NCBI RefSeq assembly: GCF_900112255.1
Contig: NZ_FOLE01000005.1
Location: forward strand, 62,001-126,000
Length of the DNA stretch: 64,000 nt
Reading direction: 5' to 3'
Source: Flexibacter flexilis DSM 6793
GTDB lineage: Bacteria; Bacteroidota; Bacteroidia; Cytophagales; Flexibacteraceae
Both the position numbers and the translations under genes were made by a program. Every line of letters starts with the position of its first letter. Positions within the stretch are counted from its first letter, which is position 1. The notes beneath the pieces were generated by a model. It saw nothing but the letters and a program-made list of their open reading frames with translations. It had not been told where the DNA came from and searched no databases. Positions 14,599-19,392 of this stretch are shown here, piece by piece.

Positions 14599-14626
14599 AA
14601 AAGCCCACTTTTAAGGTGGGCTTTTT
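14599..14626. terminator. Terminator between convergent genes
   Basis: Stem AAAGCCCACTT / AAGGTGGGCTTT followed by T's; serves the + gene ending at 14592 and possibly the amidotransferase gene on the minus strand. Confidence 0.8.
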
Positions 14627-14645
14627 CTATATAAATCACTGATTA

Positions 14646-15482
14646 CTATGCTTCAATCATTTGTTTTTTGCGCGTAGCTTCGGCCAAAAACGTGGGTAAA
14701 ATAGTTTCATGTGTGAGCGGAATACGATCTGCCGTACTCAAATGCTCAATCATATCGTTATATTTTTCTTGACCGTGGTCAATAATCACTTGCATTTGCT
14801 TTTCTGGGTGGCTAAAGTGTACGCTCATCCCTTTGGGGTCGGCTTCTGGGTGAAACTGCGTAGCCACCATCTCGTCAGACATACGAATAGCCATGACAGC
14901 GCGTTCGTACTCGACATGTGGGCGTATTTTTTCCAAACAAAGCACCGATGCCCCCAACTCGTCCAAACGAGCTTGGTTGGGCTGTACGGCTTGCCAATCT
15001 CTAAAATCAGCCACATAAAAAGGCTCAGGCAAGTTGCGGAATAAAATATCTTTTTCGCCCGCCTCCGTTTTGTGTGTCGGAAAAATCCCGAACGAAGTGG
15101 AACGGCGTTTGGTTACTTCTGCCATCTGAAAATAACGGCAAACCATTTGAAAGGAATGGCAAATAAAAAAAGCGTGTTTTTTTACGTCGCGATTGCGTTC
15201 GTTAAAATTCCAAAGATTTTCTAACCAATTAAAATAATCGTGTTCCCAAGCCAAACCTTCACCATCGTAAGGACTACCAGGCCCTCCTGTCGAGATAAAA
15301 ACATCATAATCTAAAGAAGGAACTTCATCTCTGTAGCGTGTTTCATATACCTTATATTCAAGGCCTTGCGGAAGCGTGCGTCCAAATGCGGTCAGGATTT
15401 CCTGAATGCCTCTCATGCCCTGATTGGGTATGTTATTGTAAAGGTCTAGGATTGCTACTTTTACGGGAACCGACTTGCTCAT
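14646..15482 (-). CDS. Class I glutamine amidotransferase-like protein
   Basis: 278 residues with a GMP-synthase-type amidotransferase fold. The nucleophile is Cys108 in FFICHSFQM, the oxyanion region is STGGPGSPYDG (64-74), and the rest of the triad is His211/Glu213 in QFHPEAD. It should release ammonia from glutamine or hydrolyse a gamma-glutamyl bond. No synthetase domain is fused, so the partner must be separate. It lies downstream of GCS2-type and ATP-grasp ligase genes, a combination described for predicted peptide-metabolite pathways in bacteria. A YbdK/ATP-grasp product could be its amidation or deglutamylation substrate; this is inference. Confidence 0.85.
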   Translation of the reverse strand: MSKSVPVKVAILDLYNNIPNQGMRGIQEILTAFGRTLPQGLEYKVYETRYRDEVPSLDYDVFISTGGPGSPYDGEGLAWEHDYFNWLENLWNFNERNRDVKKHAFFICHSFQMVCRYFQMAEVTKRRSTSFGIFPTHKTEAGEKDILFRNLPEPFYVADFRDWQAVQPNQARLDELGASVLCLEKIRPHVEYERAVMAIRMSDEMVATQFHPEADPKGMSVHFSHPEKQMQVIIDHGQEKYNDMIEHLSTADRIPLTHETILPTFLAEATRKKQMIEA

Positions 15483-15536
15483 AGTATTTTAATTTTGAAT
15501 AGAATAACAAATGTACGAGACAATGTTCTGAAAATA

Positions 15537-15570
15537 AAAGGCTTGTAAGTTTTTTTCCCTACAAGCCTTT
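15537..15570 (-). terminator. Terminator after the AP2 gene
   Basis: Stem AAAGGCTTGTA / TACAAGCCTTT, between the AP2 gene and the amidotransferase gene; on the minus strand the stem is followed by CTTTTATTTT. It suggests the AP2 gene is a separate unit inserted in the ligase run. Confidence 0.7.
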
Positions 15571-15596
15571 CGGTTACGTTCAATGATACATTTCTC

Positions 15597-16115
15597 CTAA
15601 TGTCTTACTGAGCCAAAGAGCTCAATAGACTTCTGTTTGTAGGCTTCTGCCGCTTCTTCAGCGGTCTTAAAAAAGCCCAATTCATAGCGCGTTCCCTTGT
15701 CATAAATCGTGGCACGATAATTCACGCCATCGCGGTAAACGCCTCTGAAGCCTGCCTTACTGGTGGTTTTACGAGTGTTACGAGTAATCTGTGAACGGGG
15801 TGCCCATTCAAGATTTTCCGTGCGACAGTCCAAACGGTTTCCGTTTTTGAACATGACATACAGCGTTCTGTCGGATTGAGGTCGTTCAATCAGCTGTTCG
15901 GCGATGTACTTATGCAAGTAAATCGTTTCGTTGCGATAAATGCCCGTCTCCTTGTTTGGGTAATTTTTCTGATAGAAAGCATACCCGTTCGAGTGGAGTC
16001 TAAGTTGCGCCAAGAAATCAATGGATTTGAGGTAATCGCTTTCCATAATCATTTTGTGCGCGTCGTCGGATATAACAACTTGTTTATCCGTGTTTTTAAG
16101 GTTAATTGTGTGCAT
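15597..16115 (-). CDS. AP2-domain protein with degenerate HNH region
   Basis: 172 residues. The C-terminal part (about 122-167) is an AP2/ERF-type DNA-binding domain: GFRGVYRDGVNYRATIY ... YELGFFKTAEEAAEAYKQKSIELFG. The centre (about 60-107) resembles phage HNH_3 endonucleases: YLHKYIAEQLI, then NGNRLDCRTENLEWAP. Where active members have a D-H pair before NGN, this protein has MFK, so the catalytic His of that motif appears lost and it may only bind DNA. HNH-AP2 proteins are common phage and homing genes. It sits between the GCS2 ligase and amidotransferase genes with its own terminator, as an insertion would. Confidence 0.85.
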   Translation of the reverse strand: MHTINLKNTDKQVVISDDAHKMIMESDYLKSIDFLAQLRLHSNGYAFYQKNYPNKETGIYRNETIYLHKYIAEQLIERPQSDRTLYVMFKNGNRLDCRTENLEWAPRSQITRNTRKTTSKAGFRGVYRDGVNYRATIYDKGTRYELGFFKTAEEAAEAYKQKSIELFGSVRH

Positions 16116-16263
16116 GGCAATTGGGGGTTTAATCTTTAAGAAATTGATTATAAGGGATGTAAAGCCTTAACATTCCTACAAAGATAGAAAATATTAAGTT
16201 GTGTGTAGTTGTTTGGGATAAGCGGTTACTTTTAATGGCAACCACTTCTATTTACTGTTTTAA

Positions 16264-17379
16264 CTAATAAGCATAACTATTAAGACCTACATTCGTCTGC
16301 TCGACAATGTAGTCCACTACGCGGCGCAAATCGCCTCCAGTAGCATTATAGACAGCCAGTTGGCGATCTGCACCAGTGCCTTGTTTTACCATTTGTTGAA
16401 TATACTCCAACTCATGGCGGCTTCCTAATTCGTCCACTACATCGTCCACAAAATCAAGAAGCTCTTGTATAAGGGCTTTGCAATCTACTTCCTCTTGCTT
16501 ACCGAAATCAATGAGCTTGCCCTCAATACCATAACGAGCAGCACGCCATTTATTTTCGTTAATAAGCGCACGGCGATAAAGTCTAAAATTCAAATTAGCC
16601 TTCATCAATTTATAAATTTTGGCTACCAATGCCTGCATCAGTGCTGCTAACGCGATGGTTTCGTCCACCAACATCGGCACATCGCAGATACGGAACTCAA
16701 TGGTTTCAAAGAACGGATGCAAACGAATATCCCACCAGATCTTTTTGCCATTGTCTATACAACCCGTTTTGATAAGCAATTTAATATAATTATCGTATTC
16801 TCCAGCACTGGCAAAGAAATCAGGAATGCCTGTACGCGGGAATTTATCAAACACTTTGGTTCTGAACGACTTAAATCCTGTATTACGACCTTCCCAGAAC
16901 GGAGAGTTGGTAGAAAGAGCGAAAATATGCGGCAAGAAATAACGCACTGCATTCATTATCTGCACACCAACTTCGCGGCTTTCGATGCCTACATGTACGT
17001 GCAAACCAAAAATCAAGTTGGCGCGAGCCGCATCTTGCAACTCATTCACAATTTCCTCATAACGAGGATGTTCTGTAATCAACTGATTTTGCCAAAGCGA
17101 AAACGGGTGCGTACCAGCCGCCGCAATCAACAAACCATTGTTGGCCGCTTGCTCTGCAATAATGCGACGCAAATATGTTACTTCACGGCGTGCTTCTTCT
17201 ATATTTTTGCAAATATTAGTCCCTACTTCTACCACCGACTGGTGCATTTCGGCTTTTACCTGCTCCTTGAGTAATATTTTCCCACCTTCCACAATCTGTT
17301 GCATGTGCGAGCGAAGCTCACGCGTTTGAGGGTCTATTACCTGAAATTCTTCTTCTATACCTAAAGTAAATTCTGCCAT
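16264..17379 (-). CDS. GCS2/YbdK-type carboxylate-amine ligase
   Basis: 371 residues matching the gamma-glutamylcysteine-synthetase 2 (COG2170) family, ATP-dependent ligases that join a carboxylate (often glutamate) to an amine. GIEEEFQVID (7-16) is the signature start with metal-binding Glu; AEMHQSVVEVGTN, AAAGTHPFSLWQNQ, LIFGLHVHVGIESRE, TNSPFWEGRNTGFKSFR and RLHPFFETIEFRICDVPM follow in order. The true amine substrate is unknown: YbdK-like members are usually not the glutathione enzyme. It is downstream of the ATP-grasp gene (165-base gap containing a stem-loop). Confidence 0.9.
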   Translation of the reverse strand: MAEFTLGIEEEFQVIDPQTRELRSHMQQIVEGGKILLKEQVKAEMHQSVVEVGTNICKNIEEARREVTYLRRIIAEQAANNGLLIAAAGTHPFSLWQNQLITEHPRYEEIVNELQDAARANLIFGLHVHVGIESREVGVQIMNAVRYFLPHIFALSTNSPFWEGRNTGFKSFRTKVFDKFPRTGIPDFFASAGEYDNYIKLLIKTGCIDNGKKIWWDIRLHPFFETIEFRICDVPMLVDETIALAALMQALVAKIYKLMKANLNFRLYRRALINENKWRAARYGIEGKLIDFGKQEEVDCKALIQELLDFVDDVVDELGSRHELEYIQQMVKQGTGADRQLAVYNATGGDLRRVVDYIVEQTNVGLNSYAY

Positions 17380-17487
17380 ACGAAATACAATGGTGTTTTT
17401 GTTTAAAATGATAAACTATTACAATAACAAAGACGGGAATTGGTGAGGAATGTTGGCGTACTTAACAGGTTCTTTATCAGGGATAAT

Positions 17488-17518
17488 ATTGAGGCGCAGG
17501 TTAAACAAACGCCTCAAT
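17488..17518. terminator. Stem-loop between the two ligase genes
   Basis: Perfect stem ATTGAGGCG / CGCCTCAAT with a 13-base loop, without a long T-run on the minus strand. It may partly terminate or protect the transcript between the ATP-grasp and GCS2 genes. Confidence 0.5.
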
Positions 17519-17544
17519 AAACATGCTATTTTTTCAATGATCAA

Positions 17545-18573
17545 TTACTTTTCTGCGGGGACTTTGGCCACTTTCTTAGCGGGTGCTTTTTTAGGAATAG
17601 CAGCACTAGCCAACGTATCCGTAATCGCTGCACCTGCCACAGCCTGACCCACAAATGTGCCCCAAGTAAGGTTCATTTGGCCTGGTTTGTGTTCTTTAGC
17701 GCGGCGAATGGCCAAATTAGAGGCAGCCTCCACAATCCATTCAAAGTTTTCTTGCCCTACCGAATTTACATCAGCATCAGGGGCAGGATTACAGAAATCA
17801 ATAGCCAAAGGCACGCCATCACGAACCGCAAATTCTACGGTGTTGAAATCGTAACCCAAACCAACGTTTAGTTTTAGCACATAATCGCGCACCAAATCCA
17901 ACAATTTCTTTTCCGCTGGGCCTTTTTCGACTACATAACGTAAATGATGCGGGTTGCGCGGCTCATATTGCATAATGTGTACGTCTTTACCACCGATGCA
18001 ATAGCAACGGAAATAATCATCAAACACTACTTCTTCTTGTAGCATCATGACCAACTGGCCAGTTTCGTTGTAGGCTTTGAAAAACTCGTCCATGTCGTTG
18101 AGTTTGTACACGTTTTTCCAGCCGCCACCCGCAAACGGTTTGAAATAGGCAGGGAAACCAACGTAGTTGAAAATACCTTCCCAATCCAAGGGAAACGCCA
18201 AGTTGCGGAAAGAGTTGCCATTCGTATCTGGCGGATGTTGGTTAGATGGTAGAAGCACCGTGCGCGGCACAGGTACGCCTACTTTCAGAGCCAATGCATT
18301 GTTAAAGAATTTCTCGTCGGCACTCCACCAAAACGGGTTGTTAATGACGGCTGTGCCGCCAATGGCTGCATTTTTCAAGAAACCCCTGTAAAAAGGTACA
18401 TCTTGCGAGATACGGTCAATAATTACAGCATAGTCCGATACTTCGCCCTGAATTACACGGCTAATGTGTACAGCTTCGGCCACAATTCCTTTTTCTTGTT
18501 TCTCGTTCACCCTCTCCACAAAGGCCTGCGGGAAAGTACTTTCTTGCCCAAACAAAATGCCAATTTTTTTCAT
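17545..18573 (-). CDS. ATP-grasp domain protein (amidoligase-like)
   Basis: 342 residues. The N-terminal domain (1-95) starts MKKIGILFGQE; the ATP-grasp core has KVGVPVPRTVLLP, FPAYFKPFAGGGWKNV (glycine-rich ATP loop, about 142-155), LMMLQEEVVFDDYFR-like linker and the metal site NTVEFAVRDGVPLAIDFCNPAPD (about 245-267, with Asp259 and Asn262). Such enzymes activate a carboxylate as acyl phosphate and couple it to an amine or thiol. The C-terminal 30 residues are a Lys/Ala/Pro-rich tail. Expected to act with the GCS2 ligase in making a small peptide-like compound; substrates unknown. Confidence 0.85.
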   Translation of the reverse strand: MKKIGILFGQESTFPQAFVERVNEKQEKGIVAEAVHISRVIQGEVSDYAVIIDRISQDVPFYRGFLKNAAIGGTAVINNPFWWSADEKFFNNALALKVGVPVPRTVLLPSNQHPPDTNGNSFRNLAFPLDWEGIFNYVGFPAYFKPFAGGGWKNVYKLNDMDEFFKAYNETGQLVMMLQEEVVFDDYFRCYCIGGKDVHIMQYEPRNPHHLRYVVEKGPAEKKLLDLVRDYVLKLNVGLGYDFNTVEFAVRDGVPLAIDFCNPAPDADVNSVGQENFEWIVEAASNLAIRRAKEHKPGQMNLTWGTFVGQAVAGAAITDTLASAAIPKKAPAKKVAKVPAEK

Positions 18574-18681
18574 AAAATCAATAGAAAGTTAAAAGTTATA
18601 CCACCCCAATGCATTATTCATCATACATTGGATTACCATAAATTTAGGAATACCTTAGCTAAACTTCTTTTAGGATTAGTT

Positions 18682-19392
18682 TTAAGATTGGATTTGCGCC
18701 AAATAATCAGGGAACATCTCTCGCCAAACAGGCCAATCATGATTGCCGCCTTTGCGAATATCCAGCCAATTATTCAAGCCCTTACGATTCAGAATTTCGG
18801 ACATCTGAATATTGGCTTGCAAACAAAAATCATGTTCGCCCACACCAAACACTACACCCATCTCATAAATGGCGGGGTTTTGCAAGCCTAGAACAAAATC
18901 AGGGGGATTATTATAATAACAAGTGTCGTCATAGTAACCGTCAAGCTGCATTTTGATATCAAATGCGCCGCCCATATTGAAAATATAGCCAACCATTTCA
19001 GGATGTCTAAACCCAAAATTAGTTGCATGATACGCCCCGAAACTACAACCCGCAACTGCTACTTTATGGTAGCCCGTTTCATTTTGCGCCCGCGACACGA
19101 CTTCCTCCAAAATCATGCGGTCATAATGTGTGTGATTATATGCTCGGTGGGCAGGGTGAATCGCTTTGTTATACCAACTGTCTGTATCTATACTATCAGG
19201 GCAATAGATTTTGACACGTCCTGTATCGACGAACCACTGTACGGACTCTATGAGTTTGAAGTCTTTATTCTGATAATAGCGTCCCATTGATGTCGGGAAC
19301 ACAATAACAGGGTAGCCTCCATGTCCAAAAACTAACATTTCAGTTTCTCGCCCAATAGCAGGCGAGTACCATTTCAAGTATTCCTCTCTCAA
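18682..19392 (-). CDS. COG4947-like esterase, TTG start
   Basis: 236 residues, alpha/beta hydrolase related to the D-type esterases of COG4947. The start REEYLKWYSPAIGRETEMLVFGHGGYPVIVFPTSMGRYY is characteristic. The nucleophile elbow is G-C-S-F-G (VAVAGCSFGAYHA), and the terminal GGNHDWPVWR supplies the His. No ATG exists before the conserved N-terminus: an in-frame stop lies five codons upstream and the frame begins at a TTG (19390-19392). Either TTG is the start, or the ATG was lost. It heads the run of the ATP-grasp, GCS2 and amidotransferase genes, and probably hydrolyses an ester or amide in the same product. Confidence 0.85.
   Translation of the reverse strand: MREEYLKWYSPAIGRETEMLVFGHGGYPVIVFPTSMGRYYQNKDFKLIESVQWFVDTGRVKIYCPDSIDTDSWYNKAIHPAHRAYNHTHYDRMILEEVVSRAQNETGYHKVAVAGCSFGAYHATNFGFRHPEMVGYIFNMGGAFDIKMQLDGYYDDTCYYNNPPDFVLGLQNPAIYEMGVVFGVGEHDFCLQANIQMSEILNRKGLNNWLDIRKGGNHDWPVWREMFPDYLAQIQS

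Follow-up and report, generated by a model that had tools for sequence, protein, structure and literature searches.

Amide bonds are made via acyl-phosphates by GCS2 enzymes, ATP-grasp enzymes, and enzymes of the glutathione synthetase (GSS) fold. Iyer et al. are said to have predicted, in 2009, peptide or metabolite pathways from gene neighbourhoods that bring together ATP-grasp, GCS2-like, glutamine amidotransferase (GATase), and hydrolase genes, and amidoligase operons for peptide-like metabolites are a kind predicted before in general terms. In fungi, the small peptide E-64 is made by an ATP-grasp ligase pathway with no nonribosomal peptide synthetase (NRPS) (PMC12568646). Here, we analyzed a 64,000-nucleotide stretch of the genome of Flexibacter flexilis DSM 6793 (contig NZ_FOLE01000005.1, positions 62,001 to 126,000; hereafter the window, from genome G000 of our set). 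Between window positions 14646 and 19392, all read on the minus strand, it encodes an esterase (EST), an ATP-grasp ligase (GRASP), a carboxylate-amine ligase (GCS2), and a GATase-like protein (GAT). An earlier note on the window had located these four intact genes correctly and had proposed that they form a pathway to a peptide-like metabolite. From the conservation and co-inheritance of the operon, the intact active sites, and the folds predicted for its proteins, we lean slightly toward the view that they belong to a conserved operon that would assemble a short amide-linked metabolite without ribosomes or an NRPS, by a glutathione-like logic.

Scanning of genome contigs for GRASP revealed 588 encoding stretches, the best 80 of which were retained, and 30 loci from a Bacteroidota phylum sample were added to give 110 loci. 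EST, GRASP, GCS2, and GAT were encoded in that order on one strand in 65 of the 110 loci, with many of the others being short or truncated stretches. Clustering of open reading frames (ORFs) from the 80 longer loci identified a fifth gene, X396 (about 396 amino acids), located after GAT or GCS2 in 69 of them. The full five-gene set was present in 51 of the 80 loci, and every one of these 51 kept the order EST, GRASP, GCS2, GAT, X396 on a single strand, with median gaps along that order of 45, 27, 43, and 6 base pairs (bp). A second, divergently oriented esterase was encoded in many of the longer loci. The earlier note had suggested checking whether the four genes keep company in genomes where the AP2 gene that lies among them in the window is missing; they do so in Algoriphagus, Mucilaginibacter, Pedobacter, Dyadobacter, Belliella, Ignavibacteria, and others. 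Many Bacteroidota keep this set as an operon with a single gene order. A literature search found no paper describing it.

Co-inheritance was evaluated among 198 Bacteroidota genomes that are related to each other. GRASP was identified in 72 of these, X396 in 60, GCS2 in 62, GAT in 50, and EST-like genes in 83. GRASP shared 58 genomes with X396 (Fisher p = 7e-34) and likewise 58 with GCS2 (p = 2e-31), while X396 and GCS2 were found together in 56 (p = 2e-37). In some families (e.g., G101 and G137; G and L numbers are our handles for genomes and loci), GRASP, GCS2, and X396 are all retained even at distant genome positions. If the genes were chance neighbours with unrelated functions, the wide intergenic gaps of the window genome (108–165 bp) and the terminator-like hairpin that sets GAT apart there would be easily accommodated, but the single order of the complete loci and strong co-inheritance even when the genes are dispersed leave this explanation a negligible probability and, for GRASP, GCS2, and X396, rule out chance clustering.

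X396 had no Pfam match over the cut-off and no NCBIfam match, and it did not belong to the GSS sequence families. A sequence search of the PDB recovered no relative even at E 1, and a profile search of the PDB recovered only YgiC (E 0.075) and one chance-level match. The AlphaFold model of X396 (predicted local distance difference test score, 93.6; predicted template modelling score, 0.92) had 27 PDB matches at E ≤ 0.001, mostly GSS, with GspS, YgiC, and YjfC. The top match was yeast glutathione synthetase (1m0w, E 7e-17), and others included a putative glutathionylspermidine synthase (3n6x), glutathione synthetases from human and plants, and YgiC of E. coli. As modelled, X396 is a permuted ATP-grasp with the fold of the glutathione synthetase superfamily. 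Its model also matches the solved ligase Cp1B (9cjn), and the operon resembles the E-64 pathway in the prospect of a peptide-like product made by ligases with no NRPS; it differs in its organisms and partner enzymes, and no oxygenase recurs in the loci examined here. A GSS-fold family of this kind, with no Pfam or NCBIfam model, was not found in a literature search, which is no proof that it is undescribed.

GCS2 matched PF04107 at 223 bits and NF010039 at 562 bits (cut-off 371), placing it within the YbdK/GCS2 family. Both Glu9 and Glu11 of its GIEEEF motif are invariant, E. coli YbdK included, and residues E9, E11, E51, R173, R219, E228, and R230 are common to GCS2 and E. coli YbdK. Among solved structures, YbdK (1r8g) and a close relative (1tt4) come nearest to it, and some of its relatives are annotated as glutamate-cysteine ligases. 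Like glutathione biosynthesis, the operon pairs a GCS2-family ligase with a permuted ATP-grasp that matches the yeast glutathione synthetase fold, in this case a structure with bound gamma-glutamylcysteine. The product could accordingly be imagined as a glutathione-like low-molecular-weight thiol, with GCS2 making gamma-glutamylcysteine, X396 acting as the glutathione synthetase, and GRASP adding a residue. We consider this unlikely. Unlike glutathione biosynthesis, the operon includes a second ATP-grasp, which is not permuted, as well as a GATase-like protein and two esterases; the extra ATP-grasp and the esterases are foreign to glutathione synthesis, and X396 lacks a GSS match in Pfam or NCBIfam. 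Furthermore, the bacillithiol gene BshC was present in 196 of the 198 genomes, whether or not they encode the module, and the product is therefore not simply a stand-in for bacillithiol as the main thiol; replacement of bacillithiol is unsupported.

The four-gene pathway proposed earlier had the conserved company right, yet the set was incomplete because X396, or a substitute that we denote Y450, is a core member. Y450 (about 450 amino acids) is encoded between GRASP and GAT and matches models of circularly permuted ATP-grasps, with one of the two Y450 sequences tested passing the Pfam cut-off. It was identified in 11 of the 14 GRASP genomes that lack X396, spanning five families, and only one X396 genome encodes a relative of it, a distant one. 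The remaining three of the 14 genomes (G007, G087, and G160) encode divergent GRASP relatives (35–43% identical). The order of motifs in X396 and Y450 agrees by eye; hhalign comparison of the two was weak (probability 0.9%, E 0.06, with two Y450 sequences only), and no relatedness is claimed from it. Such a distribution would be expected if X396 and Y450 did the same job, and it suggests a two-ligase core in which GRASP is paired with a permuted ATP-grasp, either X396 or Y450, the two being interchangeable. This displacement was not found described in a literature search, which is no proof that it is undescribed. One Y450-type locus encodes a third ATP-grasp gene (PF13535) 3' of the operon (L116:10136-11311).

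The catalytic residues named for all four window proteins in the earlier note are intact, and they are conserved among homologues as well. GRASP had no Pfam match and scored far under the cut-offs of the NCBIfam RimK/LysX families (TIGR00768, 26 bits against 143; TIGR02144, 21 bits against 276), such that membership is not indicated. Its predicted model has an ATP-grasp fold, with a Foldseek match to LysX/ArgX at E 4e-13 that places it in the superfamily and further matches to Ddl, RimK, and the graspetide ligase PsnB, and the Mg-binding acidic/Asn residues Asp259 and Asn262 were invariant in 36 sequences. GRASP thus shares its fold with RimK and with the LysX/ArgX ligases that work with LysW, but differs in sequence to the extent given above, and the loci show no recurring LysW-like carrier. 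Among recurring neighbours we noticed no alpha-E, Anbu, or transglutaminase partner, as in the Anbu/CP-ATPgrasp-alpha-E association, although no profile search was made for them. EST matched PF00756 weakly but above the cut-off (27 bits). Of 70 homologues, 67 conserve its Ser117, all 70 its Asp188, and 67 its His218. Three Ignavibacteria-type operon esterases lack the nucleophile Ser (L040, L059, and L089).

The window GRASP ends in a Lys/Ala/Pro-rich C-terminal tail (about residues 318–342; window 17545-17620). Across the 80 loci, histone-H1-like Lys/Ala/Pro-rich tails of about 20–170 residues are found on GRASPs from many Bacteroidia lineages; the tail is absent in Algoriphagus and is short or absent in most Ignavibacteria.

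The fold matches of GRASP to RimK, LysX, and PsnB are also what would be expected if it modified proteins or ribosomal peptides, by adding amino acids to a protein or cyclizing a precursor peptide, and Lys-rich tails could bind such a target or serve as one. However, median gaps of 6–45 bp leave no space for a conserved precursor gene inside the operon, and no family of small ORFs of at least 60 amino acids recurs in the 80 operon loci beyond the genes named here. We regard this explanation as quite improbable, and neither a precursor of a ribosomally synthesized and post-translationally modified peptide within the operon nor a graspetide cluster was found.

GAT matched PF00117 at 28.2 bits (cut-off 22.8), and its Cys108, His211, and Glu213 were invariant in 26 sequences, as is consistent with a class I GATase. 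A homolog of the M29 peptidase family occupies the GAT slot in 5 of the 80 loci and in G206, a genome of the window's family; M29 homologs were found in this slot in none of 59 loci with GAT versus 5 of 20 without it, and the two were never found together. Stand-alone GATs adjoin a gene for an M24-type (Xaa-Pro-type) peptidase in four loci (L140, L141, L144, and L145), two of them Pfam-confirmed. Because an M29-family peptidase takes the GAT slot in some lineages, GAT is probably a hydrolase rather than an ammonia-transferring amidotransferase. The earlier assignment as an amidotransferase therefore stands for the Cys-His-Glu triad and probably not for the reaction. The displacement of GAT by M29 was not found described in a literature search, which is no proof that it is undescribed.

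A hydrolytic GAT raises the prospect of amine salvage or a cap-and-decap scheme resembling those of Puu or butirosin, where GCS2 adds a gamma-glutamyl cap and a PuuD-like GAT removes it. GAT is class I GATase-like with no fused synthase, and its replacement by a peptidase would suit such a role. Nevertheless, GCS2 and GAT were uncorrelated in GRASP-positive genomes (38/20/11/3, p = 0.53), and a strict cap-and-decap pair is therefore unlikely and unsupported; moreover, we saw no recurring family of oxidases or dehydrogenases in the loci. Overall, we judge this scheme rather unlikely.

For the favored reading of the operon as a route to a short amide-linked metabolite, all steps and their order are inferred. 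GCS2 would activate a carboxylate, probably the side chain of glutamate, as an acyl-phosphate and join it to an amine; X396, or Y450 in some lineages, would extend the product at a free carboxylate; and GRASP, being LysX/RimK/Ddl-like, would add one further amide bond. This glutathione-like order is proposed because it is the most economical reading of the types of amide-forming ligases. GAT may then serve in trimming, turnover, or recycling by cleaving an amide or gamma-glutamyl bond, and the two esterases may remove an ester or acyl group.

Several observations weigh against this reading. Fold alone leaves chemistry unfixed, as YbdK-type and GSS-fold proteins vary in substrate; the peptide-like product of the earlier note thus fits the ligase types but stays an inference. 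Because the sampled genomes are related, the co-occurrence p-values overstate independence. GCS2 is absent from 14 and GAT from 23 of the 72 GRASP genomes, and each of the two is thus dispensable in some lineages. Genome G154 (L156) encodes GCS2, GAT, and X396, but neither EST nor GRASP adjoins them and GRASP is missing from the whole genome, which suggests that the operon is composed of two sub-modules. Lastly, X396 lies outside the operon in the window's own genome.

In that genome, X396 is encoded on another contig (G000:C11:101631-102818) and is 63% identical to X396 of a same-family genome that has it inside the operon, and a homolog of the second esterase is encoded at G000:C9:8611-9372. 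This genome thus probably encodes the whole pathway, though in dispersed form. The window GAT branches outside the main Bacteroidia operon clade and follows the AP2 gene and a strong terminator-like hairpin (Table 1). That stem-loop is probably a transcription terminator, and GAT may therefore form a separate transcript in this genome; it may have been regained or moved.

Table 1. Features of the gene block in the window, and loci in which an M29-family homolog is encoded in place of GAT.
Feature	Position	Strand	Remarks
EST, PF00756-type alpha/beta-hydrolase esterase (COG4947-like in the earlier note)	18682..19392	-	236 aa, TTG start; first in conserved order
GRASP, ATP-grasp ligase, LysX/ArgX/RimK/Ddl fold	17545..18573	-	342 aa; no Pfam model
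GCS2/YbdK-type carboxylate-amine ligase, NCBIfam NF010039	16264..17379	-	371 aa
HNH_3 domain and AP2-like gene	15597..16115	-	172 aa; family-level neighbour, outside general operon
Stem-loop then T-rich sequence, AP2 gene/GAT interval	about 15536..15569	-	-21 kcal/mol, z = -5.0
GAT, class I glutamine-amidotransferase-like	14646..15482	-	278 aa; proposed hydrolase
Terminator-like hairpin 3' of GAT	14599..14625	-	
M29-family homologues between GCS2 and X396, GAT absent	L033, L042, L048, L061, L080, L139:4250-5266		

The AP2/HNH gene is single-copy in the window genome and shares 55% identity with copies in the same family. It lies directly 3' of GCS2 in two same-family genomes (L134 and L137), loci in which no GAT was found, and a recent random insertion is thus unsupported. 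By eye, the HNH catalytic residues of its product seem partly lost, and the protein is possibly a DNA-binding regulator. No riboswitch or known RNA was found near the block. No component had a PADLOC match, and a role in anti-phage defence was dropped on that account; plasmid carriage was likewise set aside, as there were no matches in 72,556 plasmids.

About a third of the sampled Bacteroidota encode the core ligase GRASP, for the most part alongside the same partner genes. Neither GRASP nor X396, two of the ligases, has a Pfam model. More tentatively, and at a little short of an even chance, the operon may represent a phylum-wide, so far undescribed family of ribosome-independent peptides, with a GRASP and X396/Y450 core centred on an uncharacterized GSS-fold family. 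Its broad conservation suggests a compound that serves everyday physiology and not a rare antibiotic.

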